64,000 nucleotides of DNA from Capnocytophaga bilenii. Its GTDB lineage: Bacteria > Bacteroidota > Bacteroidia > Flavobacteriales > Flavobacteriaceae. The position numbers and the translations under genes were made by a program. Positions 13,003-49,069 of the stretch are shown piece after piece (within the stretch, counting starts at the first letter, position 1; every line of letters begins with the position of its first letter). The notes under the pieces were generated by a model. That model was not told the DNA's origin and did not search any database. It saw nothing but the letters and a program-made list of their open reading frames with translations. The DNA is taken from NCBI RefSeq assembly GCF_017565765.1, contig NZ_JAGDYP010000003.1, positions 248,001-312,000 on the forward strand, in the 5' to 3' direction.

Positions 13003-14022
13003 TCAAAATTTTATTAGTTTTCTTATCCATATTTCTGCTTTGGTAACTCCGTATGATAATCCTGTAATAGCTATAAATAATGGCAAAGGAATACAAAACG
13101 AATTAATTACTCCTCCAGCAGCAGTATGTATTTTATCTATAAAGAAAAGTAGTATAGGCTCTTGTAACAAGTAAAAACTATAACTAATAAACCCAAAAAA
13201 CAATAAAAATTTATTCTGAAAAACAAAACGTACTTTTTCAAATACTAAAGGTATAAAAAACACTGCAATGATAGTTATAACAGTTATGAAATATTCCACA
13301 AAATATTCTTTTGACAATGCAGATAGTATAATAGCTGCTAAAGTAATGCCACCCGAAAGATAAAGGTATTTATCTATTTGAGTTTTAAAATATAAATAAG
13401 CATAACATCCCCCAGCAAACCACCCATAATATATAAAAAGTTCTGCAATCTTCATTACAAATTCATTATGACAAACCAAAGATGTAATAATTGAAAAACA
13501 CCATAGTATGACCAGAAATAATATAGATTTATGGACGTTTTTTCTCAATAGAAAAAATACACCTCCAAAAATAGCATAAAACTTCACCTCTACAAATAAT
13601 GTCCAAAAGCTGGGTGATAAAGCTTTTATAGTGTCTATATGCAATAGTTTTTTATAAAAGTACGGTTCTGTAAAAGTAAGACCAGGCAGGAGGTTGTAAT
13701 ACGGGATCCATTTCTCACAAAATAGATAATAACCCACATAGAAAAGCAAAGTAACGATTGCCATTGCAGGAAACAACCGCAACCAACGTTTATACAGAAA
13801 GTTAATAAAACTCCTGCTACGTTCTAAAGTCATCAAGATAACAAACCCCGAAATAAGAAAGAACAACTCTACTCCCAAGTACCCATATTTTAAAAGAGGA
13901 AAAGAAGCATATTCAAAGCCATAAGGGAAATGTTCATATCGCGCATAAGCGTGATACAACACCACCAGCCATACCGCTATTCCACGTATAGCGTCCAAAT
14001 AATCAATCCTCTTTACTTTCAC
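13003..14022 (-). CDS. Acyltransferase 3 family membrane protein
   Basis: This integral membrane acyltransferase of the OafA type usually puts acetyl groups on surface sugars. The N-terminal helix carries the family signature Y-L-D-A-I-R-G-I-A-V-W with V-V-L-Y-H near 18-22, and L-G-V-E-L-F-F-L-I-S-G-F-V near 49-61. About ten hydrophobic segments follow. It is placed 3 bp after the putative glycosyltransferase, so it probably decorates the sugar made by this locus, perhaps by O-acetylation. The exact target is not visible. Confidence 0.85.
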   Translation of the reverse strand: MKVKRIDYLDAIRGIAVWLVVLYHAYARYEHFPYGFEYASFPLLKYGYLGVELFFLISGFVILMTLERSRSFINFLYKRWLRLFPAMAIVTLLFYVGYYLFCEKWIPYYNLLPGLTFTEPYFYKKLLHIDTIKALSPSFWTLFVEVKFYAIFGGVFFLLRKNVHKSILFLVILWCFSIITSLVCHNEFVMKIAELFIYYGWFAGGCYAYLYFKTQIDKYLYLSGGITLAAIILSALSKEYFVEYFITVITIIAVFFIPLVFEKVRFVFQNKFLLFFGFISYSFYLLQEPILLFFIDKIHTAAGGVINSFCIPLPLFIAITGLSYGVTKAEIWIRKLIKF

Positions 14023-14025
14023 AAT

Positions 14026-15177
14026 TTAAATCTTACAATTTACAATCTCTTTTACAAAAATCTCTCCCGAATTGAGTTTCTCAGTCTCCTTATTTGTCAA
14101 AAAATTATATTTATACTCCTCATAACGCCCCTTATCCACTACAGGAATAGAAAAATCAGCCTCAGTATCGTCTAAAAGAAAAACCTTAGTATTTAAGTAC
14201 TCACCCAAAAAATTAATATACTGATAAATGCGATGTATATTTTGCTTGTACAACAACGCATTCAAAAATACCAAAGGCTTTTCAGTAGCGATAGCATACC
14301 CTATCGAAGTACTACAATGAGCAAGTACGCACACACTATTTTTTACCAATTCAGCTGTTTTGCCAAAAAGCACCTCCCTGCCTTCGTAATAATTATGCGT
14401 CCTGTACAATTCCGCTTTGGGGTGGGCGGCTATTACTACAGGCAGCTGGCAAGCAGCTTCTATTTTTTTAAAAAAAGTATTCAGTTGCTTGTAATAAATA
14501 TCCTCACCAATAGTAGCCTCTCCAAACATTTTAAAGTCAGGGTGAAAAGGAAGGTACTCATCTAAAAAGACAATGTATTTATAAGCAAAAGGTACTTCTT
14601 CAGTATCTCTAATACGCTCAAAATCACACGTATTTACACCGATAATCTTTGCTTGTGCTACATCGTATTGCCATCCCAAGCCAATGTTACACAATGAAGT
14701 TCCACAGTTAAACACATATTTGTATTTCTGTACATAACCTACCTTTTTCAGCAAGATAGTTCCCACCTTTTTCAGGTAACTAAAGTATTGTGAGGGTTGT
14801 CGTAATTTGTTAATGATTTTGTCGGTTATAGGCATAGCTGGGAACGCCCCACGAGTTAGAGCTACAAGTTGGCAGTTGTATTTCTTAAACAACCTAAAAA
14901 GGCGCACCACTATATCTGTAAAGGTAAGCCGTGAAACAAAAAGCGTATCCTTAGAAAATCCAGCTATTACCCTCTCCAATTCACTAAACGAACCAATATA
15001 ATGTATCTTTATTCCTTCAAACGATACTTCTTTACAGAATGAAGGAAAGTACAACCGTGTCAAGTCCAAATACTCCACACAGCAACCTGCACTAACCAAT
15101 TGCCCCAAGTAGTAATCGTCATACACCTGCTGCGATAACGGCTGATAGTCAAAATATACAATGGTACGCTTTGTCAT
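14026..15177 (-). CDS. Putative GT-B glycosyltransferase, sialyltransferase-like
   Basis: No close family is certain. The C-terminal half has the layout of CMP-sugar-using GT-B enzymes (polysialyltransferase, GT52 and KpsC/KpsS-like groups): an acidic L-D-E-Y-L-P at about 205-210, A-A-H-P-K with the HP dipeptide at 252-253, and H-C-S-T-S-I-G-Y-A at 287-295. The HP and Ser/Thr motifs bind the CMP part of the donor in those families. There is no signal peptide or membrane helix. Together with NeuA, NeuB and NeuC in the same operon, this makes it the best candidate for transferring the nonulosonate. The function is inferred. Confidence 0.5.
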   Translation of the reverse strand: MTKRTIVYFDYQPLSQQVYDDYYLGQLVSAGCCVEYLDLTRLYFPSFCKEVSFEGIKIHYIGSFSELERVIAGFSKDTLFVSRLTFTDIVVRLFRLFKKYNCQLVALTRGAFPAMPITDKIINKLRQPSQYFSYLKKVGTILLKKVGYVQKYKYVFNCGTSLCNIGLGWQYDVAQAKIIGVNTCDFERIRDTEEVPFAYKYIVFLDEYLPFHPDFKMFGEATIGEDIYYKQLNTFFKKIEAACQLPVVIAAHPKAELYRTHNYYEGREVLFGKTAELVKNSVCVLAHCSTSIGYAIATEKPLVFLNALLYKQNIHRIYQYINFLGEYLNTKVFLLDDTEADFSIPVVDKGRYEEYKYNFLTNKETEKLNSGEIFVKEIVNCKI

Positions 15178-15189
15178 ATTATCTCTGTG

Positions 15190-15957
15190 TTACAATGTAA
15201 AACCATCATCCACCACAATATTCTGCCCGTTTACATACTCCGAAAGGTCTGATAGCAAGAATAGTACTGTCCCCGATACATCCTTAGCATCCAGCATCCC
15301 CTTGTTCAAGCAAAATTCCTTATAAGCCTTCAAAAAAGGCTCAGGTTGGCGGTCTTCAATTCCTCCCAACGAGATGGTATTCACCCGGATATGTTTCCCT
15401 TTAAAATACTTAGCCATATATTTTGTAAGGTGTATCAACCCCGATTTAATAGCCGCATATTCCACTGCAGATGTCATTGGTGTATTGTCGTAAATCTGAA
15501 AACGTGGTGCTATCACCCCATATATCGATGCCAAATTAATAATATTGCCATATCCCTGCTTGTAAAAGTACTTCGCAAATAGCTGTGAGGTAAGAAAATA
15601 CCCCCCTAAGTTCATTCCCAAATTCTCACAAAAATCTTCGTACTCCACATCAAAAAAATGCTTCCCGAAATTTTTGTTACGAGGGTAAGCACTATTTACT
15701 AAAGCATCTATTTTGCCATATTTTTCTGAAATAGTAGCAATAAGTGCCGAAACAGAATCTTTGTTAGTAATATCCACTTGGGCAGGTACTATAAGGCTAT
15801 TTCCCAAAGCATTACATACTTTTTCTGCTACCGAAAGGTCATATTCTGCCATTACAGCAATAGCTCCATTAGCAGCAATAGCTTGGCAAAACTCCTTGCC
15901 CAACAAGCCAGCACCTCCAGTAATTACCACTATTTTATCTTCTATCAATCCGCTCAT
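15190..15957 (-). CDS. Short-chain dehydrogenase/reductase, PtmA-like
   Basis: This classical SDR of 255 residues has the NAD(P)-binding T-G-G-A-G-L-L-G near 14-21, the catalytic Ser in N-L-A-S-I-Y-G near 142-148, and the Y-A-A-I-K pair (YxxxK) near 168-172. The C-terminus G-Q-N-I-V-V-D-D-G-F-T-L is typical. Genes of this type (ptmA) accompany legionaminic acid genes in Campylobacter. The start overlaps the nitrilase gene by 4 bp. The substrate is probably a sugar or sugar precursor, but the sequence does not say which. Confidence 0.8.
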   Translation of the reverse strand: MSGLIEDKIVVITGGAGLLGKEFCQAIAANGAIAVMAEYDLSVAEKVCNALGNSLIVPAQVDITNKDSVSALIATISEKYGKIDALVNSAYPRNKNFGKHFFDVEYEDFCENLGMNLGGYFLTSQLFAKYFYKQGYGNIINLASIYGVIAPRFQIYDNTPMTSAVEYAAIKSGLIHLTKYMAKYFKGKHIRVNTISLGGIEDRQPEPFLKAYKEFCLNKGMLDAKDVSGTVLFLLSDLSEYVNGQNIVVDDGFTL

Positions 15958-16745
15958 AATATATCTTTGTATAGCGTTATTTTTCTGTCGTTTTTTACAG
16001 GAAATTCCTTCCTATATTGGGCTACCTCCCCAAGGTCAATTTCATATACAGCAACCTCTTCAGAAAGTGATACCCCTTTCAGTTCCTCGCCATACGGCGA
16101 TACAATTTCCGATGAAGCTACATATTGCAAGCCATTACCATCTTTCCCTATACGATTTACACCCACCACAAACACTTGGTTCTCTATAGCCCTTGCTTTA
16201 ATAAGTGCCTTCCAATGAGTTACCCTCCGTTCAGGCCAATTAGCTATATTTAGCAACACTTGGCAATCTTTAGAATATCCCTGATAAAGCTCCGGAAAAC
16301 GCAAGTCGTAGCAGATAGTCAGCCCTATAGTTGCACCTCCTATATTTACTTTTTTTAGGCTATTACCCGCTTGGTAATGAGCATCTTCATTAGCATACGA
16401 AAAAGGGTGTATTTTAGTGTAAGTAGTGAGCAGCACTCCTTGCCCACTCACTACCGCCAAACAATTACCAGCCTTGTCGCCTTTTGCTAAAACAACCCCA
16501 AAGGCTATATTTACACCGTATTTTTTAGCCTGTTCTTCAAAAAAAGCAATCGTGTCAGAGCTCCCTTCCGCTTCTTTTATTCTTTCGCTCTCCATCGTAA
16601 AACCCGTAAGGGTCATTTCAGGATATACCACCAAGTCTATACCAGTGCAGCGCGATGCAATAAGTGCCAATGTAGCTGCTACTTTTTGCTTGTTAGCAAC
16701 CTTGTTTTCCCATTGCTGGTCAAGCGAAACTAATGCTATTTTCAT
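15954..16745 (-). CDS. Nitrilase-superfamily carbon-nitrogen hydrolase
   Basis: The Glu-Lys-Cys catalytic triad is visible: Y-P-E-M-T-L near 40-45, Y-T-K-I-H-P-F near 109-115 and L-T-I-C-Y-D-L-R-F-P-E near 142-152. At 263 residues it resembles omega-amidase/YafV-like members, which hydrolyse small amides. The placement is odd: it overlaps an aminotransferase by 1 bp upstream and an SDR by 4 bp downstream, in a sugar operon. A role in removing an amide made during amino transfer is possible, but this is an inference. Confidence 0.85.
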   Translation of the reverse strand: MKIALVSLDQQWENKVANKQKVAATLALIASRCTGIDLVVYPEMTLTGFTMESERIKEAEGSSDTIAFFEEQAKKYGVNIAFGVVLAKGDKAGNCLAVVSGQGVLLTTYTKIHPFSYANEDAHYQAGNSLKKVNIGGATIGLTICYDLRFPELYQGYSKDCQVLLNIANWPERRVTHWKALIKARAIENQVFVVGVNRIGKDGNGLQYVASSEIVSPYGEELKGVSLSEEVAVYEIDLGEVAQYRKEFPVKNDRKITLYKDIL

Positions 16746-18037
16746 TAGTTATATTTTCTAAATACAGGTTTTACAACTTCACCCACCAAGTATTTTTCCA
16801 CTCCTTCCTCAAGTGCTTTTTTGTATACTTGTAAAGCTTTGCGCGTAGCTTCAAATGTTCTGTCTAATTCTCTTTGCTTATGAGCATACGAAAAAACAAT
16901 TACAGGCATTAACACTCCGTTTTTAATCATTTCTTGCGAAAAAAGTGTCCTAAAAGCCATTGATACTTCTTTATTAGCATCTTTAGTAAGATAATAAGGG
17001 CTGCATTCTATACCGCCTGCTGAAAAGTAATCCTCTATACCTAACTCTTTAGCAATAGCATTCATCCCAGCAACAATTTTAGTACCATAATCCCACAAAT
17101 GTCCTATTACATCGTGTTCTTTATAGAATTTTATAGTTTCTACCAAAGCTCCTAAGCCACTCATCTCAGCTCCGTGAGTAGTTGAAGTCAAGAAAACACG
17201 TTCAGCACCTATCTCCTTAATGCCTCCAATCTTCATAAACTCGCGTTTGCCACAAAGAGCTGCTACCGAAAAACCATTTGCCATACCCTTACCAAAAGTA
17301 CATAGGTCAGGCTCTACACCATAATAAGTTTGTGCCCCTTGCAAATGCCAACGGAAGCCCGTAATCATTTCATCAAGAATAAATAAAGCCCCATTTTTAT
17401 GGCATAAATCTCTTACTTTTTGCAAAAAGTTATCTTTAGGGTGTTCAGTAGTAGCAGGCTCTAAAATCACACCCGCCACTTCATTAGGATGTTGAGCAAA
17501 TAAAACCTCTAATGATTGTATATCGTTATACCTAAAGTTTACAGTATGTTCGTGGCTTTCTTTAGGAATACCACGAGTAATTACAGTATCACCTATAAAC
17601 CAGTCGTCATACGAAAAGAAAGGGTGGTCAAAACAACGGATAATATATTTCCTACCTGTATAAGCACGCGCCATCTTCACTGCTGCTGAAGTTACAGTCG
17701 AGCCATTTTTTGCAAATTTCACCATATCCACACTAGGTATAAGGTCTACCATCGCCTCAGCTGCTTCTAGTTCTATTACCGAAGCACGTGTAAGGTTATT
17801 ACCCTTCCATATTTGCTCAATAGCTGCATTAGCAATTCTCTTTTCTCCATAGCCTATCGTAACGGCACGTAGTGCCATACCATAGTCTAAAAACTCCTTC
17901 CCATCAGGAGTATAAGTATAAGCCCCTTCACCTCTTTCAAATATTTGTGGGGCATTTTCAGGATATTGGTCATCACCACGACTATATGTGTGGCAACCTC
18001 CAGGTATCAAATTATTTAATCGTTCGCTATAAGTCAT
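16745..18037 (-). CDS. Class III PLP-dependent aminotransferase, glutamate-1-semialdehyde aminomutase-like
   Basis: The 430-residue protein has the class III fold: P-G-G-C-H-T-Y-S-R-G near 12-21 as in glutamate-1-semialdehyde aminomutase, D-E-M-I-T-G-F-R near 221-228 and the PLP lysine in F-G-K-G-M-A-N-G near 247-254. It is unlikely to be HemL: it lies in a sugar operon, next to an SDR, a nitrilase and NeuA. Relatives are common in surface-polysaccharide clusters, where they aminate a keto sugar or sugar-like acid. The substrate is unknown. Confidence 0.82.
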   Translation of the reverse strand: MTYSERLNNLIPGGCHTYSRGDDQYPENAPQIFERGEGAYTYTPDGKEFLDYGMALRAVTIGYGEKRIANAAIEQIWKGNNLTRASVIELEAAEAMVDLIPSVDMVKFAKNGSTVTSAAVKMARAYTGRKYIIRCFDHPFFSYDDWFIGDTVITRGIPKESHEHTVNFRYNDIQSLEVLFAQHPNEVAGVILEPATTEHPKDNFLQKVRDLCHKNGALFILDEMITGFRWHLQGAQTYYGVEPDLCTFGKGMANGFSVAALCGKREFMKIGGIKEIGAERVFLTSTTHGAEMSGLGALVETIKFYKEHDVIGHLWDYGTKIVAGMNAIAKELGIEDYFSAGGIECSPYYLTKDANKEVSMAFRTLFSQEMIKNGVLMPVIVFSYAHKQRELDRTFEATRKALQVYKKALEEGVEKYLVGEVVKPVFRKYN

Positions 18038-18041
18038 CTTG

Positions 18042-18758
18042 TTATAATATATTTTTTAATTTTAATTCTAAAATTCTTTCTACAATATAGAAATCTACTA
18101 TATCGTCTATTTCGTATGCTTTATATTTAGGTACTATGTAAGGCAGCGTAAGATGATGATAAAAAGTATGTTCTTTTATATAAAAGTTGATATCCGATAA
18201 ATATAAAGAACCCTCAAAAAAATATAAATCATTTAAATCTTGCCTTCTTAACACCTTCATTTCTCCCAAATAGGGCTCTAATAATCCTTCTTTAGATAAA
18301 TTTACCAAGAAAGCAGGATGAGTAGCTTCTACTTTCGAAACGCCTACAATACTTTTAGCACTCTTATGATTTAATAACTGCTCTATAGCGGTATTTATAT
18401 CTGCAACATCACGCAGTGGCGAAGTAGGCTCCAACAGCAGTATATAATCAAACTCCTGTCCTTGGCTGCGGTAGTAATCAATTGTGTGTAGTACAAATTC
18501 CGAAGATGGCGAAGTATCAGTCGCCAATTCCGCAGGTCTCAAAAAAGGTACTTTTATCCCAAAACTCTCAGCCACCGAAGCTATTTCGGCACTGTCAGTC
18601 GATACGAATATCTCATCAATATAGTTGCTTGCTTGGGCTTGTTCTATGCTCCAACCTATTAATGGTTTGCCACATAAAGGCTTTATGTTTTTATTAGGCA
18701 ATCCCTTACTACCTCCTCTTGCAGGGATAATAGCCAATATTTTTTTATTATTATACAT
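18042..18758 (-). CDS. neuA: CMP-nonulosonate cytidylyltransferase (NeuA / LegF family)
   Basis: This enzyme activates a nine-carbon keto sugar acid with CTP to give CMP-nonulosonate. The CTP-binding N-terminus I-I-P-A-R-G-G-S-K-G-L-P-N-K-N-I near 10-25 is the family hallmark. It is followed by S-T-D-S-A-E-I-A near 53-60 and L-L-E-P-T-S-P-L-R near 106-114. At 238 residues it has only the synthetase domain, without the esterase domain of some NeuA proteins. The gap to the nucleotidyltransferase upstream is 3 bp. Whether the substrate is Neu5Ac, legionaminate or a relative cannot be settled from sequence. Confidence 0.9.
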   Translation of the reverse strand: MYNNKKILAIIPARGGSKGLPNKNIKPLCGKPLIGWSIEQAQASNYIDEIFVSTDSAEIASVAESFGIKVPFLRPAELATDTSPSSEFVLHTIDYYRSQGQEFDYILLLEPTSPLRDVADINTAIEQLLNHKSAKSIVGVSKVEATHPAFLVNLSKEGLLEPYLGEMKVLRRQDLNDLYFFEGSLYLSDINFYIKEHTFYHHLTLPYIVPKYKAYEIDDIVDFYIVERILELKLKNIL

Positions 18759-18761: not shown

Positions 18762-19805
18762 TTAGCGTTCTAAATGTTTTATAAACTCTTGTGCGTGCTC
18801 GTAATCCACTGTTTTCCCAATGTCTATCCAATAACCTATAATAGGGTCATAAACCAATCTACCACCACTGGCTACCAAGCGCTCCATCACATCCGTTATA
18901 TCACAATATTTTCCTCGCTCTATAGTAGAAATTAGCGAGCGCTCTAGTATATAAATACCAGCATTAGAGTGGTATATAAAGCTCGGCTTCTCTTTAAAGT
19001 TCGTTACTCGCCCATCTTTAGTCTCAAATACAGCATAAGGCACATCCACCTTGTATTCTGTCGATGCTACTGCCATAGCAGCCCCTTCATTTAGCAATTT
19101 TAGGTATAGTGATTCAAAGTCCACATTGGTAAACAAATCACTATTCATCACCAGCACGTGTTCCGTACTAAAGTCATCTATCAGAGCCAAAGCGCCTGCA
19201 GTACCCAGAGGTTCATCTTCCCACACATATTCTATAGTAATCCCCTTTTGGCTGCCATCACCCAAATAATCCACTATCTGCTCACCAAGATATTTTACCG
19301 ATATATAGATTTTCTTAATCCCAAAACTAATCAATCGGTCTATATTATACTCTATAATAGGCTTACTCCCCAGCTTAAGCATCGGCTTAGGAATCGTATC
19401 CGTTAGCGGACTTAAGCGCTTCCCACGACCACCTGCCATTATTACCGCCTCCAAAGGAAGTTGAGCCTCTGTATATTCCAAGTCTATCAAATCCACCATC
19501 CTGCCTTCATCATCCAGAATAGGTAAAATTTTTATATCGCTCTTACGGTATTTCTTAAAACTCTGGTACGAAGATAGCTGGGTTAGGTAAGTAAAACCCT
19601 TGTAACAAATATCTCCCAACTTCTTTTCTAAATGCTGTTCACTTACTATCGCACGCCTTATGTCTCCATCAGTAACCGAACCTATCACACGCCCATTATC
19701 ATCTACCACAAATAGTATCAACCTACTGATGTTCCGTAAAGCATTCAGCTTCTGCAAGCCCTCTACTAAGTTCTTATCCTTATGAATTAATAGGTCTGAT
19801 CTCAT
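18762..19805 (-). CDS. CBS-domain nucleotidyltransferase (PtmE-like)
   Basis: Two CBS motifs fill about residues 1-120 (R-V-I-G-S-V-T-D-G-D-I-R near 39-50). A sugar-1-phosphate nucleotidyltransferase domain follows from about 127, with the pyrophosphorylase signature M-A-G-G-R-G-K-R-L near 129-137 and P-K-P-M-L near 145-149. In Campylobacter jejuni a protein with this domain order, PtmE, makes GDP-glucosamine to start legionaminic acid synthesis. The neighbours here (NeuA, NeuB, NeuC) match that setting. The CBS part may sense a nucleotide. The GDP specificity is inferred. Confidence 0.83.
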   Translation of the reverse strand: MRSDLLIHKDKNLVEGLQKLNALRNISRLILFVVDDNGRVIGSVTDGDIRRAIVSEQHLEKKLGDICYKGFTYLTQLSSYQSFKKYRKSDIKILPILDDEGRMVDLIDLEYTEAQLPLEAVIMAGGRGKRLSPLTDTIPKPMLKLGSKPIIEYNIDRLISFGIKKIYISVKYLGEQIVDYLGDGSQKGITIEYVWEDEPLGTAGALALIDDFSTEHVLVMNSDLFTNVDFESLYLKLLNEGAAMAVASTEYKVDVPYAVFETKDGRVTNFKEKPSFIYHSNAGIYILERSLISTIERGKYCDITDVMERLVASGGRLVYDPIIGYWIDIGKTVDYEHAQEFIKHLER

Positions 19806-19807: not shown

Positions 19808-20479
19808 TTATTTGTCAATATATTTGATAAGTTGAAAAGCCTCGGCATATTCTACTCCCACACTTGCTCCTCTATAAGTTGCTAATGCTTCTATATTTCT
19901 TAAACTCCTTGGAAAAGGATGCTCTCCTACCTCAGATTCATAAATTTTCATCAGCTCTAATTTTTCTTCTAAAAAAGATGAAATGTCTACAAAATAGTTA
20001 GGTATAAATACTTTTTCAGGTAACTGAGGTGCAAATTCAGTTTCAGAAATACATTCATACATAAGCACTTGTTTAATAAAAGGGTATCTAAAAGATTTTG
20101 TACAAGCCATTACTGCATCAAATGTAATTCTATGATCTGAATGAGCATCCGAACGATTCAAACAATACACTATTTCGGGTTCTATCTCAGTAAAAACTTT
20201 TGATATTTTTGGAACCATTTCAATCAATGTACTTGTTGAAAGGGACATTGTGGGATAATTCAATAAGAATACCTTTTCTACACCCAATGCCTCAGAAATT
20301 TTTTCTATTTCTTTTTGTCGGCTACAAACACGTTCTTTAGAGAAGCCACAACTTTCCAAAACATTAGTTACAATAAGCCAATATATCTTATCACCATTTT
20401 TTTTATGTTTTAACAAAGTCCCACCAGCTCCTAAAATCTCATCATCAGGATGTGCCGATATAACTATAACTTTTTTCAT
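19808..20479 (-). CDS. PIG-L / LmbE family zinc deacetylase
   Basis: This zinc-dependent de-N-acetylase removes acetyl groups from amino sugars. The metal and catalytic motif A-H-P-D-D-E is at 9-14, followed by I-L-G-A-G-G-T-L, and the second motif N-R-S-D-A-H-S-D-H-R near 109-118 supplies the third ligand. It overlaps the formyltransferase by 4 bp. A deacetylase coupled to a formyltransferase suggests exchange of an N-acetyl for an N-formyl group on one sugar. No signal peptide is visible, so it should act in the cytoplasm on a nucleotide sugar or free precursor. Confidence 0.87.
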   Translation of the reverse strand: MKKVIVISAHPDDEILGAGGTLLKHKKNGDKIYWLIVTNVLESCGFSKERVCSRQKEIEKISEALGVEKVFLLNYPTMSLSTSTLIEMVPKISKVFTEIEPEIVYCLNRSDAHSDHRITFDAVMACTKSFRYPFIKQVLMYECISETEFAPQLPEKVFIPNYFVDISSFLEEKLELMKIYESEVGEHPFPRSLRNIEALATYRGASVGVEYAEAFQLIKYIDK

Positions 20480-21366
20480 AAGTATTGTCCTTTTTTTGGA
20501 AGTTCTAAGAACTCGTGTTCTATAATTTGAATTGCCCCATCATATGTTTTTACAAGTATCTTGTTGTTTTCTACTTCTAAAACTTTTCCCGGCTCATAAT
20601 TTACAAAAGTACAACTTTTTTTTATAACTTTCCATATTTTTACCTCTTTTTCTCCATCCAATTTTATATGAGCTCCTACATAAGGGTGCGTCAATGCCCT
20701 TACCAAATTGTAAATAGCTTCCGATGACATCCTAAAGTCTATCTGTCCATCTACTTTTCCTCTTTTTCTCCACGCATTACCCTCTGCTATATTTTGCTTT
20801 CTCCTTTCTATATTTTCACCTTTCAGTTCAAATTCTTTAGAAAAATCTATAATTTGCTTTATTGCAATTTCACCTACTTTTTTATAAAGTGTTTCAGCAG
20901 TATCAGTCTCTTCTATAGCTACTATTTCTTGTGAAATAATATCTCCTGTATCTGCACCCTCATCCATTATAAAAAATGTACTTGCAGTTCTTTTTAATCC
21001 TAAAAAAATAGCCCATATTAGGGGGTGACGCCCTCTGTTGTTGGGAAGTTCAGTAGGGTGAAAACCTACTACTCCGTATTTTGGAATTGATAATATCTCA
21101 GAGGGAAGTATATGCGACCAACCAAAACAATAAATCACATCAGGTTTTTTTTCTTTTAAGAAAGCTATAAGCTCTTCTTCATTATCCTTTTTTCTAAAAA
21201 AAACAGGAATATGATATTTATCCGTTAAAGGTGTTAAATCACAGAAATCAGCGTTAAAATCTGATTTTCTTTTGGTAATAACCCCCACTACATCAAAATT
21301 ATGTTCTATAAGCGCCTCCAATGCTCTATATGAAAAATCAACAGTACCTATAAAAACTATTCTCAT
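20476..21366 (-). CDS. Sugar N-formyltransferase, Fmt-like fold
   Basis: The protein has an N-terminal N10-formyltetrahydrofolate-dependent formyltransferase domain (about 1-190) and an OB-like C-terminal domain (about 200-296). The active-site loop reads G-F-H-P-T-E-L-P-N-N-R-G-R-H-P near 101-115, and the catalytic Asp is in M-D-E-G-A-D-T-G-D-I near 138-147. Methionyl-tRNA formyltransferase normally has Asn two residues before the loop His; here it is Gly, so this is not the housekeeping enzyme. The neighbours point to an amino sugar as acceptor. It overlaps the deacetylase by 4 bp. Confidence 0.82.
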   Translation of the reverse strand: MRIVFIGTVDFSYRALEALIEHNFDVVGVITKRKSDFNADFCDLTPLTDKYHIPVFFRKKDNEEELIAFLKEKKPDVIYCFGWSHILPSEILSIPKYGVVGFHPTELPNNRGRHPLIWAIFLGLKRTASTFFIMDEGADTGDIISQEIVAIEETDTAETLYKKVGEIAIKQIIDFSKEFELKGENIERRKQNIAEGNAWRKRGKVDGQIDFRMSSEAIYNLVRALTHPYVGAHIKLDGEKEVKIWKVIKKSCTFVNYEPGKVLEVENNKILVKTYDGAIQIIEHEFLELPKKGQYL

Positions 21367-21369: not shown

Positions 21370-22530
21370 TTATAAATCATAAAATGGTTTCTTGAGTATA
21401 TCTTCCAAATCTATACTTTTTAAAACTTTAACTATTTCTTCCGAAGGAGCATCTACTCCCTTAAACGGATTTTCTACAGTTTTTAGTAACGTTTTAAACT
21501 CGCTCGAAATGGCTTTGTTAATAGCAGCTTCAATATCTTGTGATGAACTATCACATTGTATCACACTTTCTGCCATTATTCTACCTCTTTGTCTATCACC
21601 TATATTTACAGTAGCAATTTTAAAACTTGGAGCCTCTACTATACCACTCGATGAGTTTCCTATCATAGCATCTACATATTGTAATGCCGAAAGGTAGCGC
21701 AGTTGCCCCAGAGAGGTAAAACAAACTGCTTTTGAAGAATTTTTAGCCACATACTCTTCTATCATTTGGTTTACAATTCGCCCATCAGTGTCAGAGTTTG
21801 ATTTAGTAAATATGATTTTGCAATTATCAATCTTATCCAACGCATTTAATAATTGTTGTGTTTGTACTGCTGAAGTTGCTTTTTCAAGTGTAACAGGGTG
21901 AAAAGTAACTAAAAAAGTGTATTTTTTATCTAATTTAAAATTAATTGAGGTTTCAAAATCTTCTTTAGATAAAAGTTTTAACTTCAAAATATTTTCAAGA
22001 GCTAAAGCACCTATATTAAAAACCTTATTTGGTGTTTCGCCTAATTGTATAATCCTTTTTTTATATATTTCAGTAGCACAAAAGTGTATCTGAGACATTT
22101 TGGTAATACTATGCCTAATAGCCTCATCTATTAGCCCCTCTGTTGCTTCTCCCCCGTGACAATGTGCCACAGGAATACGAGCTATCATAGCTGCACTCAC
22201 TGCCGAAAAGATTTCAAATCTATCACCTAAAACTAAGATAATATCAGGCTTAAGCTCCGCAAAGGCTTCCGAAAAAGAAATCATTGCAAGCCCCATACTT
22301 TTAGAGATTCCTACAGGAGTATCAGAAGAAAGAAGAATTTCTATCTTTTTATCAATCGTAAATCCTGCGTTTTCAATATCTTTATAAGTTAAACCAAACT
22401 CAGGGGAAAGATGCATTCCCGTTGCAATCAATTGAAGTTGCAATGTTTTATCCTCTTCAATTGCTTTTATAGTATGATGTAGCAAGCCAAATTCGGCTCT
22501 TGTACCCGTTATAACACAAACTTTTCTCAT
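21370..22530 (-). CDS. neuC: Hydrolysing NDP-N-acyl-hexosamine 2-epimerase (NeuC / LegG family)
   Basis: The enzyme epimerises and cleaves an NDP-amino sugar to free ManNAc or its 6-deoxy-4-amino analogue, the substrate of NeuB. The start I-T-G-T-R-A-E-F-G-L near 7-16 is the family signature, L-G-D-R-F-E-I near 93-99 and A-H-C-H-G-G-E-A-T-E-G near 113-123 follow, and G-N-S-S-S-G-I-V-E near 289-297 is the uracil/phosphate site. It overlaps NeuB by 4 bp. NeuC and LegG cannot be told apart by eye; the presence of LegB/LegC-type genes in the window favours a LegG-like role. Confidence 0.9.
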   Translation of the reverse strand: MRKVCVITGTRAEFGLLHHTIKAIEEDKTLQLQLIATGMHLSPEFGLTYKDIENAGFTIDKKIEILLSSDTPVGISKSMGLAMISFSEAFAELKPDIILVLGDRFEIFSAVSAAMIARIPVAHCHGGEATEGLIDEAIRHSITKMSQIHFCATEIYKKRIIQLGETPNKVFNIGALALENILKLKLLSKEDFETSINFKLDKKYTFLVTFHPVTLEKATSAVQTQQLLNALDKIDNCKIIFTKSNSDTDGRIVNQMIEEYVAKNSSKAVCFTSLGQLRYLSALQYVDAMIGNSSSGIVEAPSFKIATVNIGDRQRGRIMAESVIQCDSSSQDIEAAINKAISSEFKTLLKTVENPFKGVDAPSEEIVKVLKSIDLEDILKKPFYDL

Positions 22531-23534
22531 AGCTCAATAAAATCATCTTCTTCAAAATCTCTTATCGCCTTGGTACCTATCACCTCATTCCATCGCATAG
22601 GCGAAAGCCCCGTGCCAGGTCGTTTAACAATAAGATTCTCTTCTGTAAGCAATTCCCCTTTTTTTATAGCCCTATTAGCTATAATGCTTCTTCTTACAAT
22701 AGGCTCATTTTTAGCTTCAGAAGCCGATACCTCTTTCACCCCCAAGCCTCCTATCGCTTTTTCTATATTGCGAATAGCACTTACCATAGCTTTTAGCTCT
22801 TTAGGCTCAAGAGAAGCCTTATGGTCAGGGCCTGGTAAATTTTTGTCTAAGGTAAAGTGTTTTTCAATTACCGTAGCTCCTAAAGCTACCGCTGCTATAG
22901 GTACTTCTATTCCTAAAGTATGGTCAGAATAACCCACCGCTACACCCAATTCTTGCTGAATATGTAGCATCGCCTTTAGGTTTACATCCTCCATAGGAGT
23001 AGGATATTCTGTATTGCAATGCAATATCGTAATTTTATCTTTGCACACCCCATTATCAGTAAGCACCTTTACAGCCTCTTTTATTTCTGCAATCGTAGCC
23101 ATTCCCGTACTCATAATAATAGGCAAACCCATCTTTGCCACTTTAACTAAGTATGGATAATTAGTAATTTCACCAGAAGGAATCTTAAAAAAATCCATAT
23201 TTAATTCCTTTAGAGTATCTATAGATACTAAATCAAAGGGCGTTGAAGCAAATTTTATATTCTTTGTTTCAGCATATTGTGATAAAATCTTAAAATCAGA
23301 TAATGGCAAGTGAATTTTCTTAGTCATTTCTAACTGAGACTCTTTTATCCCTAAGTTCTGGATTTGATATTCCGTCATAGTCCCTTTTTTTGTAACAACC
23401 AAATTAGGAACTGCAGTTTGAAACTTTACATAATCAGCACCACTTTCTGCAGCAACATCTATTAGCTGCTTGGCTTTATTGAGGTCAGCATTATGATTTA
23501 CCCCAGCCTCTGCTATAATTACTACCTTTTTCAT
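22527..23534 (-). CDS. neuB: N-acetylneuraminate / legionaminate synthase (NeuB / LegI family)
   Basis: NeuB condenses phosphoenolpyruvate with a six-carbon amino sugar to give a nine-carbon nonulosonic acid. The TIM-barrel starts I-I-A-E-A-G-V-N-H-N-A-D near 6-17 and contains S-T-P-F-D near 96-100, I-P-S-G-E near 117-121 and G-Y-S-D-H-T-L-G near 200-207. The C-terminal SAF/antifreeze-like domain runs from R-R-S-I-I-A near residue 277 through K-R-P-G-T-G-L near 300. It overlaps both neighbours by 4 bp. It is the committed enzyme of the pathway, so the locus surely makes a nonulosonic acid. Confidence 0.94.
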   Translation of the reverse strand: MKKVVIIAEAGVNHNADLNKAKQLIDVAAESGADYVKFQTAVPNLVVTKKGTMTEYQIQNLGIKESQLEMTKKIHLPLSDFKILSQYAETKNIKFASTPFDLVSIDTLKELNMDFFKIPSGEITNYPYLVKVAKMGLPIIMSTGMATIAEIKEAVKVLTDNGVCKDKITILHCNTEYPTPMEDVNLKAMLHIQQELGVAVGYSDHTLGIEVPIAAVALGATVIEKHFTLDKNLPGPDHKASLEPKELKAMVSAIRNIEKAIGGLGVKEVSASEAKNEPIVRRSIIANRAIKKGELLTEENLIVKRPGTGLSPMRWNEVIGTKAIRDFEEDDFIEL

Positions 23535-23848
23535 TTCTTTATTTTCTCTTTTAGTATACTATTCATACTTTCCCAATTTGTAAAAGGTAAAGCCCTATCG
23601 TCTATCCATACATCTCCAATAGGTTTCCCCATTACCAATTGATGATATTTAAAACCATTTTTTTTGAGCCAGTCGGTTGTCATTTCAAACTCCATCCAAG
23701 TTCTAGCTGTATAAAAAATAATGGTATGCCCCTCATCATATAAAGCATTTACAGAAGAAACAGCATCTTTAAGAGGACGTGCTAATGAACGACTATAGGT
23801 CTTTTCTTCAGTACAAATAGTACCATCAATATCTATTATTATTTGCAT
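23531..23848 (-). CDS. Small HAD-family phosphatase-like protein of sugar clusters
   Basis: The 105-residue protein has the HAD nucleophile motif I-D-I-D-G-T-I at 4-10, a second motif F-Y-T-A-R-T near 45-50 and the acidic W-I-D-D-R-A near 82-87. It is too small to have a cap domain. Such proteins are commonly paired with ATP-grasp genes in capsule loci, as here: the ATP-grasp gene ends 1 bp upstream. The phosphorylated substrate is unknown; a sugar or acyl phosphate made in the locus is likely. Confidence 0.8.
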   Translation of the reverse strand: MQIIIDIDGTICTEEKTYSRSLARPLKDAVSSVNALYDEGHTIIFYTARTWMEFEMTTDWLKKNGFKYHQLVMGKPIGDVWIDDRALPFTNWESMNSILKEKIKK

Positions 23849-25954: not shown

Positions 25955-26176
25955 TTATTTAGCATTAGTAAAAAATTCCTCTGCTATTTCAGTTTTTGTC
26001 AAAGAAGAAGCAACCCCTTCAATGAAGCGCCCTTTACTAAGAGTTTTTTTAGCATCAGCTATTTTTTTTTGAAAAGCCTCACTATTTCTAAATCTTTCAA
26101 AAGCACCATCTTTAGTTCCAGGAGTCAACTCATAGGTGTCCCAAGTTTCCCATATATCTTGTTCTTTTGTTACCAT
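25955..26176 (-). CDS. Small partner protein of a DUF6934 gene (copy 1)
   Basis: The 73-residue soluble, charged protein is of unknown function. It overlaps the DUF6934 gene upstream by 7 bp. It is related to the 65-residue protein at 47718-47915: both contain R-N-S-E-(A/E)-F near the middle followed by a Lys-rich helix and S-(K/R)-x-R-F. The same two-gene order occurs at both places, so the pair is a unit. A small second gene overlapping a larger one recalls toxin-antitoxin layouts, but there is no direct evidence for that. Confidence 0.65.
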   Translation of the reverse strand: MVTKEQDIWETWDTYELTPGTKDGAFERFRNSEAFQKKIADAKKTLSKGRFIEGVASSLTKTEIAEEFFTNAK

Positions 26177-45895: not shown

Positions 45896-45937
45896 TGCTT
45901 ATACACAGCAAATTACCTATAATTGATAATTATTTAC

Positions 45938-45945
45938 TACCTTTG
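45938..45945 (+). promoter_or_regulatory. -7 promoter element of the LegB-type dehydratase gene
   Basis: TACCTTTG lies 14 bp before the start codon, after the fcl terminator. It begins a new transcription unit for the 46-49 kb genes. Confidence 0.65.
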
Positions 45946-45959
45946 CAAAAAATATCCAG

Positions 45960-47168
45960 ATGATACACCTCCACGAGTTTATAGATAAATACGTTACCAA
46001 GCGTCCTGAAAGTATGTTTAGGGCAGATTTGCACGCCCATCAATCAGCATTAGCAAAAGCCATCGAAGGCAAAAGCGTATTAGTTATTGGTGGAGCAGGT
46101 TCTATTGGCAGTTCGTTTATAAAAGCTCTTTTGCCTTTCAGTCCTAAATCATTAGTAGTCGTAGATATCAATGAAAACGCACTTACCGAGCTTACGCGCG
46201 AGTTGCGTAGCACTTCAGCCTTTACCGTGCCTACCGACTATGTAACTTACCCGATGAGCTATGCCGATGAAGTTTTTGTAAAGATGTTCAAGGCACGCGC
46301 AGGTTTTGATATTGTAGCCAATTTTTCGGCACATAAGCACGTACGAAGCGAAAAAGATAAATATTCAGTAGAAGCATTGCTCAAAAACAACGTAGTAAAT
46401 GCCAAAAAACTATTAGATTTATTGTGCGATTACCCCCCACAACACTTCTTTTGCGTCTCTACCGACAAGGCTGCCAACCCCGTAAATATAATGGGCGGCA
46501 GCAAAAAAATTATGGAAGATATGATAATGGCTTATGCCAAACACTTCCCTGTAACTACCGCTCGCTTTGCCAATGTAGCCTTTTCCAACGGTTCGCTGCC
46601 CGCAGGATTCTTAGAGCGCATTGCCAAAAACCAACCCCTATCAGCTCCTTGCGATGTAACCCGCTATTTTGTGTCGCCCGAAGAAAGCGGACAAATATGC
46701 CTAATGGCTTGTATATTAGGCAGTAGCGGACAGATATACTTCCCAAAGCTAAAGAAAGAACAAGTACTTACCTTCTCAGAAATAGCCACCCAGTTGCTCA
46801 AAGAATTAGGTTATACGCCACTTGAGTGCCAAAGCGAAGCCGAAGCAATCGCCAAAGCCGAAAGCAGAAAAGAAACCGACAAATGGTACCCCGTTTATTT
46901 CTCAAAAAGCGACACCACAGGCGAAAAACCCTATGAAGAGTTTTATACTGAAGGCGAAAAGGTAGATTTAAACAACTATACATCTTTAGGCGTTATCAGT
47001 TTGCAATCGTTTAAAGAAGTTTCTGAAATAGAAAGTTTTATAAATAAGTTAACCCAACTATTCAACAACCCTGCTACCGAGAAGAGCGATATTACCGCAC
47101 TGATGAAAGAATTTTTGGTAAATTTCGACCATCACGAAACAGGACGCTATTTAGATAGTAAGATGTAA
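45960..47168 (+). CDS. UDP-N-acetylglucosamine 4,6-dehydratase-like protein (LegB-type)
   Basis: This is a soluble protein of the Polysacc_synt_2 family. The Rossmann motif V-I-G-G-A-G-S-I-G-S is near 42-51, S-A-H-K-H-V-R near 121-127, and the active-site block S-T-D-K-A-A-N-P-V-N-I-M-G-G-S-K-K near 161-177. Such enzymes make UDP-4-keto-6-deoxy-GlcNAc. A LegC-family aminotransferase follows in the same direction, with only a DUF6934 pair between, so it probably makes the first intermediate of the 6-deoxy nonulosonate pathway (as LegB). It has no membrane helices, unlike PglF/WbpM. Confidence 0.8.
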   Translation: MIHLHEFIDKYVTKRPESMFRADLHAHQSALAKAIEGKSVLVIGGAGSIGSSFIKALLPFSPKSLVVVDINENALTELTRELRSTSAFTVPTDYVTYPMSYADEVFVKMFKARAGFDIVANFSAHKHVRSEKDKYSVEALLKNNVVNAKKLLDLLCDYPPQHFFCVSTDKAANPVNIMGGSKKIMEDMIMAYAKHFPVTTARFANVAFSNGSLPAGFLERIAKNQPLSAPCDVTRYFVSPEESGQICLMACILGSSGQIYFPKLKKEQVLTFSEIATQLLKELGYTPLECQSEAEAIAKAESRKETDKWYPVYFSKSDTTGEKPYEEFYTEGEKVDLNNYTSLGVISLQSFKEVSEIESFINKLTQLFNNPATEKSDITALMKEFLVNFDHHETGRYLDSKM

Positions 47169-47220
47169 AAGCCGAGCGAAGGTTGAGCGAAGAAAACTCA
47201 CCAATTGCCGAATATGTAAC
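47169..47220. repeat. GCGAAGG-type dispersed repeat before the second DUF6934 pair
   Basis: A piece with AGCCGAGCGAAGGTTGAGCGAAG and GCCGAATATGTAAC follows the dehydratase stop. It is related to the segments at 28222-28335 and 56703-56750. Confidence 0.5.
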
Positions 47221-47265
47221 AAAAATTATCTGAACTACAGATAATACTTAAAGAGATTAATCAAT

Positions 47266-47715
47266 ATGGAACTACCACGTTATGAAATACTTCCTAATAA
47301 GGAAGTGAATAGTTTTACTTTCATTAGTGAAGGGAAAAAAGGAAAGATACAAAAGGGAATATTTTATGAGCAAACAACCATAAAGGGTGTTTTCAATTTA
47401 GTATTGGGTGATAGAGACCCACTAACAGGTAAGTTAGATGATAAAGTAGTTACCGATAATGGTGATACCGAAAAAGTATTAGCTACTGTTGCTGCTACAG
47501 TTTATTCATTTACAGATAGTAATCCTACAGCTTATATATTTGCAAGAGGCAGCACACATTCACGAAATAGACTATATCGGAGAGGGATTACTAAGTACTT
47601 ATCGCAAGCTCTTGAAGATTTTATAATCTATGGAATGTTACCAAATGAAGAATTTGAAATTTTTACCCCAACTACTGATTATATAGGATTTTTAATTCAA
47701 CGAAAAATGAAATAG
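47266..47715 (+). CDS. DUF6934 family protein (copy 2)
   Basis: The 149-residue protein is a paralogue of the protein at 26170-26622. Shared parts include M-E-L-P-R-Y-E-I at the start, N-L-V-L-G-D-R-D-P-L-T-G near 45-56, G-D-T-E-K-V-L-A-T-V near 66-75, and G-S-T-H-S-R-N-R-L-Y-R-R-G near 93-105 followed by I-T-K-Y-L-S-Q-A-L-E-D-F. There is no signal peptide or membrane helix. It sits between the LegB-type and LegC-type genes on the same strand, although nothing suggests a sugar role. The function is unknown. Confidence 0.78.
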   Translation: MELPRYEILPNKEVNSFTFISEGKKGKIQKGIFYEQTTIKGVFNLVLGDRDPLTGKLDDKVVTDNGDTEKVLATVAATVYSFTDSNPTAYIFARGSTHSRNRLYRRGITKYLSQALEDFIIYGMLPNEEFEIFTPTTDYIGFLIQRKMK

Positions 47716-47717
47716 TT

Positions 47718-47915
47718 ATGAATAAAGAAGAACAAAAAGCATTTGAAAAAAAAATGTGGGATAAATACCAAATAAAACTAAAGTTTAGAGAGGACGAAGA
47801 TGATTTTATCTCTAATTACAGAAATAGTGAGGAGTTTAAGCAAAAAATGAATGAAGTAAATAAACTCCTTAGCAGAGTTCGTTTTCCTGAGAAACTTTCT
47901 AACCAAATAAACTAA
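47718..47915 (+). CDS. Small partner protein of a DUF6934 gene (copy 2)
   Basis: This is a 65-residue charged protein, 2 bp after the DUF6934 stop. It matches the 73-residue partner at 25955-26176 in its C-terminal half: Y-R-N-S-E-E-F-K-Q-K-M near 34-44 and L-L-S-R-V-R-F near 50-56. The N-terminal halves differ. Predicted mostly helical, with Lys/Glu-rich helices. Because the same order and spacing occur twice, the small gene is likely real in spite of its size. Confidence 0.68.
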   Translation: MNKEEQKAFEKKMWDKYQIKLKFREDEDDFISNYRNSEEFKQKMNEVNKLLSRVRFPEKLSNQIN

Positions 47916-47923
47916 TAACCACA

Positions 47924-49069
47924 ATGAATATACCTGAAACCATAGCCTTTATACGAGATCTTTACGGCGAAAAAGATGCATTTATACCTCTACACGCACC
48001 CACTTTTGCAGGTAACGAAAAAAAATATTTAGAAGAATGCATCGATACAACTTTCGTATCGAGTGTAGGTAAATTTGTCGACCTCTTCGAGCAAAAAGTG
48101 GCAGAATATACAGCTGCCAAACACGCCGTAGTGTGTGTAAATGGTACCAATGCACTCCATATTGCCTTGAAAATTAGTGGGGTAGAGGAGGGGGATATGG
48201 TAATTACCCAACCTCTTACTTTTATTGCAACTACCAATGCTATCGTCTATGCAGGTGCAGTTCCCGCCTTTGTAGATGTTGATAAAGATACTATGGGGCT
48301 TTCGCCTACATCATTGGAACGATTTTTGCAGGACAATGCCCAGCTACGCAACGGAGCGTGTTATCACAAACAAACAGGTAGGCGTATCAAAGCCTGCTTG
48401 CCAATGCACACCTTCGGACACGCCTGCCGTATAGAAGAAATTATAGCCATTTGTGAACACTATCACATCGCTGTAGTGGAAGACGCTGCCGAGGCAATGG
48501 GTAGCTACTACAAGGGCAAACACTTAGGCACCTTTGCCCCCATAGGAGCTATTTCCTTCAACGGTAATAAAACCATTACCACAGGTGGTGGCGGAATGAT
48601 ACTCACCAATGATGAAACCATAGCACATAGGGCAAAGCACCTTACCACACAAGCCAAACTGCCCCACGCTTGGGAGTTTGTGCACGATGAAATAGGCTAT
48701 AATTACCGAATGCCTAATATTAATGCCGCTTTAGGAGTCGCTCAATTAGAACAGTTAGACGGCTTTTTAGCCAATAAGCGGGCTACAGCCGAAGCCTATA
48801 AAGCCTATTTTGAAAAACAAGGCATTGCGTTTTTTGCCGAACGAGAAAACGAAAAATGCAACTACTGGCTTAATGCTATTATTTTAAAAGATAAAGAAGA
48901 GCGCAACGCCTTTCTTACTGAGGCAAATGCACAAGGAGTAATGAGTCGCCCCATATGGCAACTGATGAACCGTTTGCCAATGTTTGTAAATTGTGAGCGG
49001 GGCAACCTTAGCAACGCCGAATGGCTTGAAGCAAGAGTTGTAAATATCCCAAGCGGAGTAAGAAAATAA
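47924..49069 (+). CDS. LegC-family PLP-dependent aminotransferase
   Basis: This is a DegT/DnrJ/EryC1/StrS-fold aminotransferase of the LegC family. The start P-L-H-A-P-T-F-A-G-N-E-K near 23-34 and F-V-S-S-V-G-K-F-V-D near 44-53 are hallmarks of this family. The PLP lysine is in F-N-G-N-K-T-I-T-T-G-G-G-G near 198-210. LegC aminates the 4-keto-6-deoxy sugar made by LegB on the way to legionaminic acid. The rest of that pathway (NeuB, NeuC, NeuA) is on the other strand about 24 kb away. It starts 8 bp after the small DUF6934 partner gene. Confidence 0.87.
   Translation: MNIPETIAFIRDLYGEKDAFIPLHAPTFAGNEKKYLEECIDTTFVSSVGKFVDLFEQKVAEYTAAKHAVVCVNGTNALHIALKISGVEEGDMVITQPLTFIATTNAIVYAGAVPAFVDVDKDTMGLSPTSLERFLQDNAQLRNGACYHKQTGRRIKACLPMHTFGHACRIEEIIAICEHYHIAVVEDAAEAMGSYYKGKHLGTFAPIGAISFNGNKTITTGGGGMILTNDETIAHRAKHLTTQAKLPHAWEFVHDEIGYNYRMPNINAALGVAQLEQLDGFLANKRATAEAYKAYFEKQGIAFFAERENEKCNYWLNAIILKDKEERNAFLTEANAQGVMSRPIWQLMNRLPMFVNCERGNLSNAEWLEARVVNIPSGVRK

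Follow-up and report, generated by a model that had tools for sequence, protein, structure and literature searches.

The question raised by this locus is how a nonulosonic acid pathway is completed when its usual N-acetyltransferase is missing. The CMP-legionaminic acid pathway uses LegB, LegC, LegH, LegG, LegI and LegF, together with PtmE, PtmA and PtmF. In this established chemistry, enzymes of the dehydratase and LegC families turn nucleotide-linked GlcNAc into a 2-acetamido-4-amino-6-deoxy sugar, and C2 and C4 of the hexose become C5 and C7 of the nonulosonate. In a stretch of 64,000 nucleotides of Capnocytophaga bilenii DNA (hereafter the window; positions 248001-312000 of contig C14, in an assembly of 2.73 Mb and 20 contigs that is 99.93% complete), genes of this pathway lie in two groups. 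An initial annotation saw no LegH-like acetyltransferase in either group and proposed that a sugar formyltransferase, overlapping a PIG-L deacetylase, takes its place. Comparison with related loci leads us to favor, on a slender balance of probability, a different explanation, in which the two groups constitute a single legionaminic-type CMP-nonulosonic acid pathway with two acylation modules, so that both usual acetyl groups are replaced. One module would consist of an ATP-grasp ligase and a HAD phosphatase occupying the position of LegH, and the other of the PIG-L/formyltransferase pair.

All of the genes named in the initial annotation are open reading frames where it placed them, and its observation as a whole is borne out in part. 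The NeuC/LegG hydrolysing 2-epimerase (21370..22530; TIGR03568, 481 bits against a cut-off of 236) and the NeuB/LegI nonulosonate synthase (22527..23534; TIGR03569, 475 bits, cut-off 400) on the minus strand, and the LegC aminotransferase on the plus strand (47924..49069; TIGR04181, 559 bits, cut-off 420), score over curated cut-offs, so these three identities hold, and NeuB has a single match in its own genome. The gene first called NeuA (18042..18758, minus strand) does belong to the CMP-synthetase family, being over the cut-off for PF02348, and is listed here as a CMP-nonulosonate synthetase of the NeuA/LegF/PseF type; its nearest model is PseF, which it matches below cut-off (168 against 206 bits). 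Like the CMP-legionaminic pathway, then, the window has LegC, NeuC, NeuB, a CMP synthetase, a PtmE-like and a PtmA-like enzyme, and the same order of chemistry is expected. It differs in that no LegH was found and the dehydratase is of the type of Protein Data Bank (PDB) entry 3pvz instead of a TIGR04180 LegB. No PtmF-like oxidoreductase is present among the window operon proteins scanned, and genes for a glutamate-semialdehyde-aminotransferase-like (GSAM-like) enzyme and a carbon-nitrogen hydrolase are present. The PIG-L/formyltransferase pair is an addition to the known pathway, as are the ATP-grasp and HAD genes in the LegH position.

The absence of a visible LegH was upheld when the whole C. 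bilenii genome was searched. The NeuD/LegH model TIGR03570 gave 10 matches, none over cut-off, which fall in five proteins that score as LpxA, LpxD (two), DapD and a gamma carbonic anhydrase (below its cut-off), and the PseH family gave three weak matches, again none over cut-off. This negative covers the NeuD and PseH families, and the genome may yet hold a GNAT-type LegH of other sequence. A GNAT gene at 11222-11761 was set aside as a LegH candidate, having no NCBIfam match at E 1e-15 and adjoining an NAD kinase gene, although it may yet be one.

What matters most for the missing LegH is a pair of genes absent from the initial annotation. Directly upstream of NeuB, on the minus strand, lie genes for a small HAD phosphatase (23531..23848; HAD families below NCBIfam cut-offs, PF08282 just over cut-off) and an ATP-grasp amide ligase (23850..24788; PF15632 and PF02655 over cut-off). 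Enzymes of the ATP-grasp type catalyze the formation of amide bonds. Among the sequences compared, in which loci are labeled L and genomes G, a locus from a different family within the same class (L111) has the operon LegB-LegC-ATPgrasp-HAD-NeuB-NeuC-PtmE-NeuA, with an ATP-grasp protein 48% and a HAD protein 71% identical to those of the window and a LegB that passes TIGR04180. Neither NeuD nor the PIG-L/formyltransferase pair was found in the 19.9 kb of L111, where a GNAT-type LegH is possible. A second locus, L075, belongs to another genome of the genus and reads dehydratase-ATPgrasp-HAD-NeuB, the ATP-grasp protein being 68% identical. The stretch EINPR, which we take to be a conserved functional stretch of ATP-grasp ligases, is invariant in the four of four ATP-grasp proteins aligned (window, L111, L075 and L120), and when the HAD protein is aligned with the HAD neighbors of the three related ATP-grasp genes, a DxDG motif proves to be kept in the same four loci. 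Because the ATP-grasp and HAD genes take the place of LegH without PIG-L in L111 and L075, their products should act on the free 4-amino group. With the LegH position of the window already held by these genes, as in L111, the proposal that the formyltransferase replaces LegH loses ground.

An ATP-grasp enzyme in place of an N4-acetyltransferase has a parallel in Neisseria, where, according to passages of PMC11130364 and PMC6959607, PglB2 (ATP grasp) yields a glyceramido sugar where PglB yields an acetylated one, the substrate likewise being a 2-acetamido-4-amino-trideoxy sugar. Unlike the window ligase, PglB2 is fused to a phosphoglycosyltransferase and serves protein glycosylation, and the likeness drawn here is one of predicted function. 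Among 395 Bacteroidota genomes, the window ATP-grasp protein has two matches at E 1e-42, its own genome included, and comparison with viral contigs and phages was unproductive. Two further ATP-grasp settings were seen. In L120 (7679-13367; Rickettsiales bacterium Ac37b plasmid 2, from an Amblyomma tick sample), Gmd, an aminotransferase and an acyltransferase stand with an ATP-grasp protein (37%) and a HAD protein; this looks like a perosamine-type set, perhaps for N-acyl-perosamine, and so another 4-amino-sugar setting. The other is a second Capnocytophaga locus (L112 1305-6885 and L113 7290-12771), which holds a sugar-transferase-like gene (recognized by eye), a distant ATP-grasp, NeuD-like and LegC-like genes and one for a large dehydratase-like protein; as a whole it is reminiscent of a locus for protein glycosylation.

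The second module is the pair to which the initial annotation drew attention. As described there, the formyltransferase gene (20476..21366; PF00551 and PF02911 over cut-off) overlaps the gene for a PIG-L (LmbE-type) de-N-acetylase (19808..20479; PF02585, 90 bits, over cut-off), both on the minus strand, and the overlap is 4 bases (20476-20479). The PIG-L translation, read by eye, contains AHPDDE and AHSDH, presumably the first and the second-His motifs of PIG-L proteins. Relatives of the formyltransferase were sought in 395 Bacteroidota genomes (nine matches at E 1e-35, own genome included), in 20 genomes of the genus (own included) and in the species genome collection, which gave 21 loci; its best match in the named genome collection is in Capnocytophaga periodontitidis p1a2 (L019; 85%). 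A PIG-L match follows the formyltransferase on the same strand in 18 of the 21 collection loci. The three without are L031, where the contig ends, L039, and L038, where the adjoining frame resembles a deformylase on visual inspection.

Pair and nonulosonate-type genes occur together in 14 loci (the window, L019, L027, L030-L033, L035, L036, L079-L082 and L098), L031 being included for its formyltransferase at the cut contig end. Nine of these also encode NeuD (L027, L030, L032, L033, L035, L036, L079, L080 and L082), and three a second formyltransferase that retains an Asn replaced by Gly in the window enzyme (L019, L081 and L098); of the remaining two, the window has ATP-grasp and HAD and L031 is cut by the contig end. 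If the count is confined to the 12 loci with NeuB in the DNA examined, which drops L027 and L082, where LegC is visible and NeuB is not, the figures are seven with NeuD, three with an Asn-type formyltransferase, one with ATP-grasp and HAD, and one cut. The NeuD proteins of the nine pair loci and of L077 are all over the TIGR03570 cut-off (10/10). Because nine of 14 pair loci also encode NeuD and three a second formyltransferase, the pair, as judged from gene content, does not appear to stand in for LegH. The N-formyl nonulosonate first proposed is still the best guess for the product, whereas the 7-N-formyl form, made by a formyltransferase in place of LegH, is not supported.

It could nevertheless be that the 4-amino group is formylated by this enzyme, which would thereby replace LegH and give a 7-N-formyl sugar, and that PIG-L serves another step. 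No LegH of the NeuD or PseH families was found in the genome, and the Roseibium locus L115 carries the pair where NeuD was not found. PseJ (PDB 6ci4), which acts at the 4-amino group of the pseudaminate precursor, shares the formyltransferase superfamily and a nonulosonate context with the window enzyme, to which it is only distantly similar (E 2e-9). In Geobacillus, a passage of PMC5109656 describes a formyltransferase at an acetyltransferase position. Against this, the same pair stands beside NeuD in the nine loci just given; in L019 and L081 it stands beside an Asn-type formyltransferase that, lying between LegC and NeuB, itself occupies the place of LegH; and in the window that position belongs to ATP-grasp and HAD. 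We therefore regard formylation at the 4-amino group by this enzyme as unlikely.

Outside the 14-locus count, the pair or its relatives occur in 11 Pseudobutyrivibrio-type loci and in L106, L107, L108, L115 and L116. The genomes of the Pseudobutyrivibrio-type loci have a NeuD-like match in 10 of 10 searched (L024 left out), not necessarily in the cluster, and one NeuD protein compared with 17 genomes has a match at E 1e-12 in 16, which may likewise lie outside the cluster; the exception is C. periodontitidis, which carries the second formyltransferase. In L107 the pair is accompanied by NeuD, by a large dehydratase and by a gene resembling LegC, L106 has the pair beside NeuD in a less complete setting, and L108 has the pair at a contig end; by eye, all three look like bacillosamine clusters. 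On a Synechococcus plasmid (L116), a pseudaminate-like cluster that includes a GNAT gene contains PIG-L and a short, distant formyltransferase. The feature common to these nonulosonate, bacillosamine-like and pseudaminate-like contexts is the 2-N-acetyl group.

The same distribution bears on whether the nonulosonate is the substrate at all, since the pair might modify some other sugar in the surface polysaccharide that contains the nonulosonate, which would then keep its N5-acetyl. Other sugar genes are indeed present in the window locus in the family scan, and in L106, L107, L108 and L115 the pair occurs where no nonulosonate synthase was found. However, the pair of the window is part of the nonulosonate operon itself, flanked by NeuC and PtmE, an order repeated in L019, L032, L079 and L081, and it accompanies nonulosonate genes in unrelated bacteria, which makes a separate target quite unlikely.

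NeuC was found on 17 plasmids, seven of which were opened as controls. In L097, L100, L101 and L103, NeuD is present and the pair absent, as is also the case in L077, a control from the genus. A Halorussus plasmid (L098; NZ_CP119810.1) has two formyltransferases and PIG-L, and NeuD was not found there. Its archaeal nonulosonate cluster (5241-7031) has one formyltransferase of Asn type and one of Gly type, and one of the two is annotated as a methionyl-tRNA formyltransferase. On Ensifer adhaerens plasmid pA (L102, 3910-13224), NeuD, LegB, LegC, PtmE, NeuC, PIG-L, NeuB and a distant ATP-grasp are present, possibly for another acyl exchange at N2. This last locus is what speaks for an assignment with the roles swapped, whereby PIG-L frees N2, the ATP-grasp ligase acylates it and N4 is left to the formyltransferase: L102 has PIG-L, NeuD and ATP-grasp and no formyltransferase was found in it. 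Yet the Ensifer ATP-grasp protein is only 29% identical to that of the window, and closer relatives of the window protein occur without PIG-L in L111, L075 and L120; we consider swapped roles very unlikely.

The formyltransferase of the pair also carries a distinguishing residue. Asn, His and Asp presumably form the catalytic triad of formyltransferases, with Asn held to be catalytic, and this Asn is seen in alignments of Fmt and ArnA. The window enzyme has Gly101-His103-Asp139, the conserved Asn being replaced by Gly, so that the Asn-His-Asp triad is incomplete. We aligned 56 entries, comprising 31 non-control entries, 2 second formyltransferases and 23 controls (one of which, L074, comes from the C. 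periodontitidis genome and is its second formyltransferase). At the site two positions ahead of the conserved His, Gly is found in 29 of the 31 non-control entries, and Asn in both second formyltransferases and in all 23 controls, although there is redundancy among the entries: the Pseudobutyrivibrio copies resemble each other closely, the Fmt of C. bilenii was entered twice and at least two of the 23 controls are repeats. The two non-control entries without Gly have Cys (Synechococcus) and Asn (the first Halorussus one). All but two of the 29 Gly-type genes have PIG-L as a same-strand neighbor (27); for the other two, the contig is cut (L031) or PIG-L lies one gene away on the opposite strand (L098). 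By record titles or annotation, the hosts are Capnocytophaga, Lachnospiraceae, Paenibacillaceae, Helicobacteraceae, Holosporales, Chromatiales, Omnitrophota, Roseibium and Halorussus. A quick tree, made with no support test, places most Gly-type sequences together; the Gly type need not be one clade, because L082, L115 and L106-L108 branch elsewhere.

Loss of the Asn invites the suggestion that the Gly-type enzyme is no longer a formyltransferase and carries out another acyl or one-carbon reaction, and the split between Gly in 29 of 31 non-control entries and Asn in every control and second formyltransferase is what that suggestion would explain. The His and Asp of the triad are nevertheless kept in all 56 entries, both formyltransferase domains (PF00551 and PF02911) match, and a haloarchaeal cluster has a Gly-type enzyme while another haloarchaeon, as described in a passage of PMC6137143, makes 5-N-formyl-legionaminic acid; we think such a change of reaction highly improbable. 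A mistaken reading of the housekeeping Fmt was also considered and rejected: the formyltransferase query returns two matches at E 1e-20 in the C. bilenii genome, one being the gene of the operon and the other an Fmt of Asn type that lies apart from it, on contig C15. In the Synechococcus locus, the formyltransferase (L116 6303-7001) matches PDB 1zgh (E 2e-64), which was deposited as a methionyl-tRNA formyltransferase. Neither has the conserved Asn in the alignment, and because of this 1zgh may be a sugar enzyme.

Taken with the gene order, these comparisons suggest the following route for the pathway with two acylation modules. The dehydratase and LegC would convert nucleotide-linked GlcNAc to the 2-acetamido-4-amino-6-deoxy sugar. 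At N4, the future N7, where LegH or NeuD normally acts, the ATP-grasp ligase and HAD protein would attach a small carboxylic acid, for which a glyceryl group, after the Neisseria PglB2 precedent, is our favored guess. At N2, the future N5, PIG-L would strip the 2-N-acetyl of GlcNAc, and the 2-amino group so freed would be formylated by the Gly-type formyltransferase. NeuC, NeuB and the CMP synthetase would then complete the sugar, and the predicted product is a 5-N-formyl-7-N-(ligated acyl) nonulosonate bearing neither usual acetyl. A 5-N-formyl group is likelier than a 7-N-formyl group because, if LegH is lacking, the precursor offers PIG-L a single N-acetyl to act on, the 2-N-acetyl of GlcNAc. 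Gene content, conserved neighborhoods, coexistence with or replacement of LegH and the Gly signature are observed, whereas the substrates, the sequence in which the steps run, the nature of the acyl groups and the configuration at C8 are inferences.

Several observations weigh against this explanation. The ATP-grasp and HAD genes are found in only three Leg-type loci (the window, L111 and L075), and the ATP-grasp gene adjoins LegC only in L111, LegC in the window lying in the other gene group; this adjacency is limited to L111 because the genomes of L075 and L077 have no close LegC (best 37%, the L075 genome, G408, being 88% complete). Against 398 genomes of the phylum of G430, the ATP-grasp protein gave no match, in a comparison that had no positive control. 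As for the pair, no NeuD was found in the flanking DNA examined of the 11 Pseudobutyrivibrio-type loci, nor in Roseibium L115, where the pair is seen together with a sugar transferase and an aminotransferase of the DegT type. PIG-L stands without a formyltransferase found in L102, and in Sinorhizobium L114 it lies beside a sugar transferase and an aminotransferase with no formyltransferase annotated adjacent. Conversely, in Azospirillum L099, the last of the seven plasmids opened as controls, a formyltransferase lies about 7 kb from NeuC, at the edge, with no PIG-L or NeuD found. Finally, Gly replaces the presumed catalytic Asn, so formyl transfer itself is not certain, and the activities given to the enzymes of both modules are predictions from gene comparison.

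The predicted type of product is not new in itself. Passages of PMC6137143 report that the glycan of Halorubrum sp. PV6 ends in 5-N-formyl-legionaminic acid, and by our own arithmetic the doubly charged ions listed there differ by 151.05, that is, by a residue of about 302.1 Da, as would be expected for one formyl and one acetyl group. HrrPV6_1050 is named in the same source as a possible formyltransferase and is numbered next to NeuC, so that Halorubrum and the window share both the N-formyl nonulosonate, here a prediction, and a formyltransferase gene near NeuC. Unlike the window, PV6 is archaeal and has LegH and NeuD genes, and in the text of PMC6137143 that was searched neither the word deacetylase nor HrrPV6_1052, a gene of the PV6 region (GenBank MH673034), occurs. 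In the open-licence literature, to which the search was confined, subscription literature being outside its scope, we found among the matches listed no description of a portable PIG-L/Gly-type formyltransferase pair, of the Gly residue mark, or of ATP-grasp and HAD in the LegH position.

More broadly, these loci may reflect mix-and-match acylation of nonulosonic and bacillosamine-type sugars by modules at two positions, the window combining both so that no usual N-acetyl remains, a generalization to which we give somewhat less than an even chance. Within it, and with the same reserve for the two taken jointly, the pair would be a general 2-N-acetyl-to-formyl exchange of bacteria and archaea, and ATP-grasp with HAD would be an alternative to LegH at the 4-amino group. 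A deacetylase with a formyltransferase class recognizable by one residue would provide a testable gene-level explanation for 5-N-formyl nonulosonates, for which the Halorubrum formyltransferase has so far been only tentatively assigned, as described in PMC6137143, and the ATP-grasp/HAD pair is a candidate alternative to LegH. If true, the acyl groups of sialic-acid-like sugars would become predictable from genomes, and it would become easier to correct the annotation of genes now labeled methionyl-tRNA formyltransferase or carbamoyl phosphate synthase-like. The window also suggests that sialic-acid-like sugars are built from interchangeable decoration modules.

The dehydratase at the start of the pathway (45960..47168, plus strand) was initially called LegB-type. 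It is an NDP-GlcNAc 4,6-dehydratase of 402 residues matching PF02719, with PDB 3pvz, presumably a Vibrio fischeri enzyme, as its closest entry (E 4e-99). The earlier name holds in that the gene occupies the LegB position in related clusters, and fails in that the protein has no match to TIGR04180 (LegB) at E 1e-3. The window thus resembles the V. fischeri 8-epi-legionaminic pathway in its dehydratase type. It differs in that V. fischeri has a NeuD gene, VF_0144, according to a passage of PMC4481668. The same source describes a Plesiomonas LegB of 395 residues related to E. coli Elg1. Because the dehydratase is of the 3pvz type and the V. fischeri O-antigen contains 8-epi-legionaminic acid (as stated in a passage of PMC7940393), the product here may, by analogy, be of the 8-epi series in its C8 configuration.

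As first described, the pathway of the window is split, and the two groups are real, with the dehydratase and LegC on the plus strand and the remaining pathway genes on the minus strand. In C. periodontitidis (L019), by comparison, one run reads dehydratase, LegC, second formyltransferase, NeuB, NeuC, formyltransferase, PIG-L, PtmE and NeuA, and continues with PtmF, GSAM, carbon-nitrogen hydrolase and short-chain dehydrogenase. Because the same genes form one run there, the split in the window looks like a local rearrangement. That the dehydratase and LegC serve an unrelated sugar was rejected, since their L019 counterparts are 89-90% identical and contiguous with NeuB-NeuC. Near each broken end of the pathway in the window lies a DUF6934 gene (26170..26622, minus strand, and 47266..47715, plus strand; both PF22028), in opposite orientations and with 71% DNA identity over 481 columns. 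An inversion between these copies would explain the split, with 26170-26622 as a possible endpoint. A further DUF6934-like frame, recognized by eye, is present elsewhere in the genome (L085 3895-4383). In two other genomes of the genus (L075 and L077), a UDP-glucose dehydrogenase and an epimerase precede the dehydratase, which is followed by ATP-grasp and HAD in L075 and by NeuD in L077, and then by NeuB and NeuC in both.

The remaining genes of the run are all on the minus strand. The PtmE-like CBS-domain sugar-1-phosphate nucleotidyltransferase (18762..19805; PF00483 and PF00571) may supply GDP-GlcNAc, by analogy with the Campylobacter pathway. Next are the GSAM-like enzyme (16745..18037; NF004856, 689 bits, cut-off 486), the carbon-nitrogen hydrolase (15954..16745; PF00795, 138 bits) and the PtmA-like short-chain dehydrogenase (15190..15957), which scores 280 bits with PtmA, below the cut-off of 350, and 355 bits with the oxidoreductase model NF006619, over the cut-off of 255. 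This block of three (15190-18037) is common to L019 and L077. Ahead of the ATP-grasp gene stands a gene for a CysD-like sulfate adenylyltransferase subunit (24927..25826; TIGR02039, 416 bits, cut-off 397); a link to sulfation is possible, and no CysN-like protein is present among the operon proteins scanned. The product of 14026..15177, of 383 residues and with no Pfam match at E<=5, could be guessed to be a candidate glycosyltransferase; its single-sequence structure model is uninformative, with a mean predicted local distance difference test (pLDDT) score of 33. The final gene of the run encodes an acyltransferase-3 family membrane protein (13003..14022; PF01757, 84 bits), which probably O-acylates the glycan.

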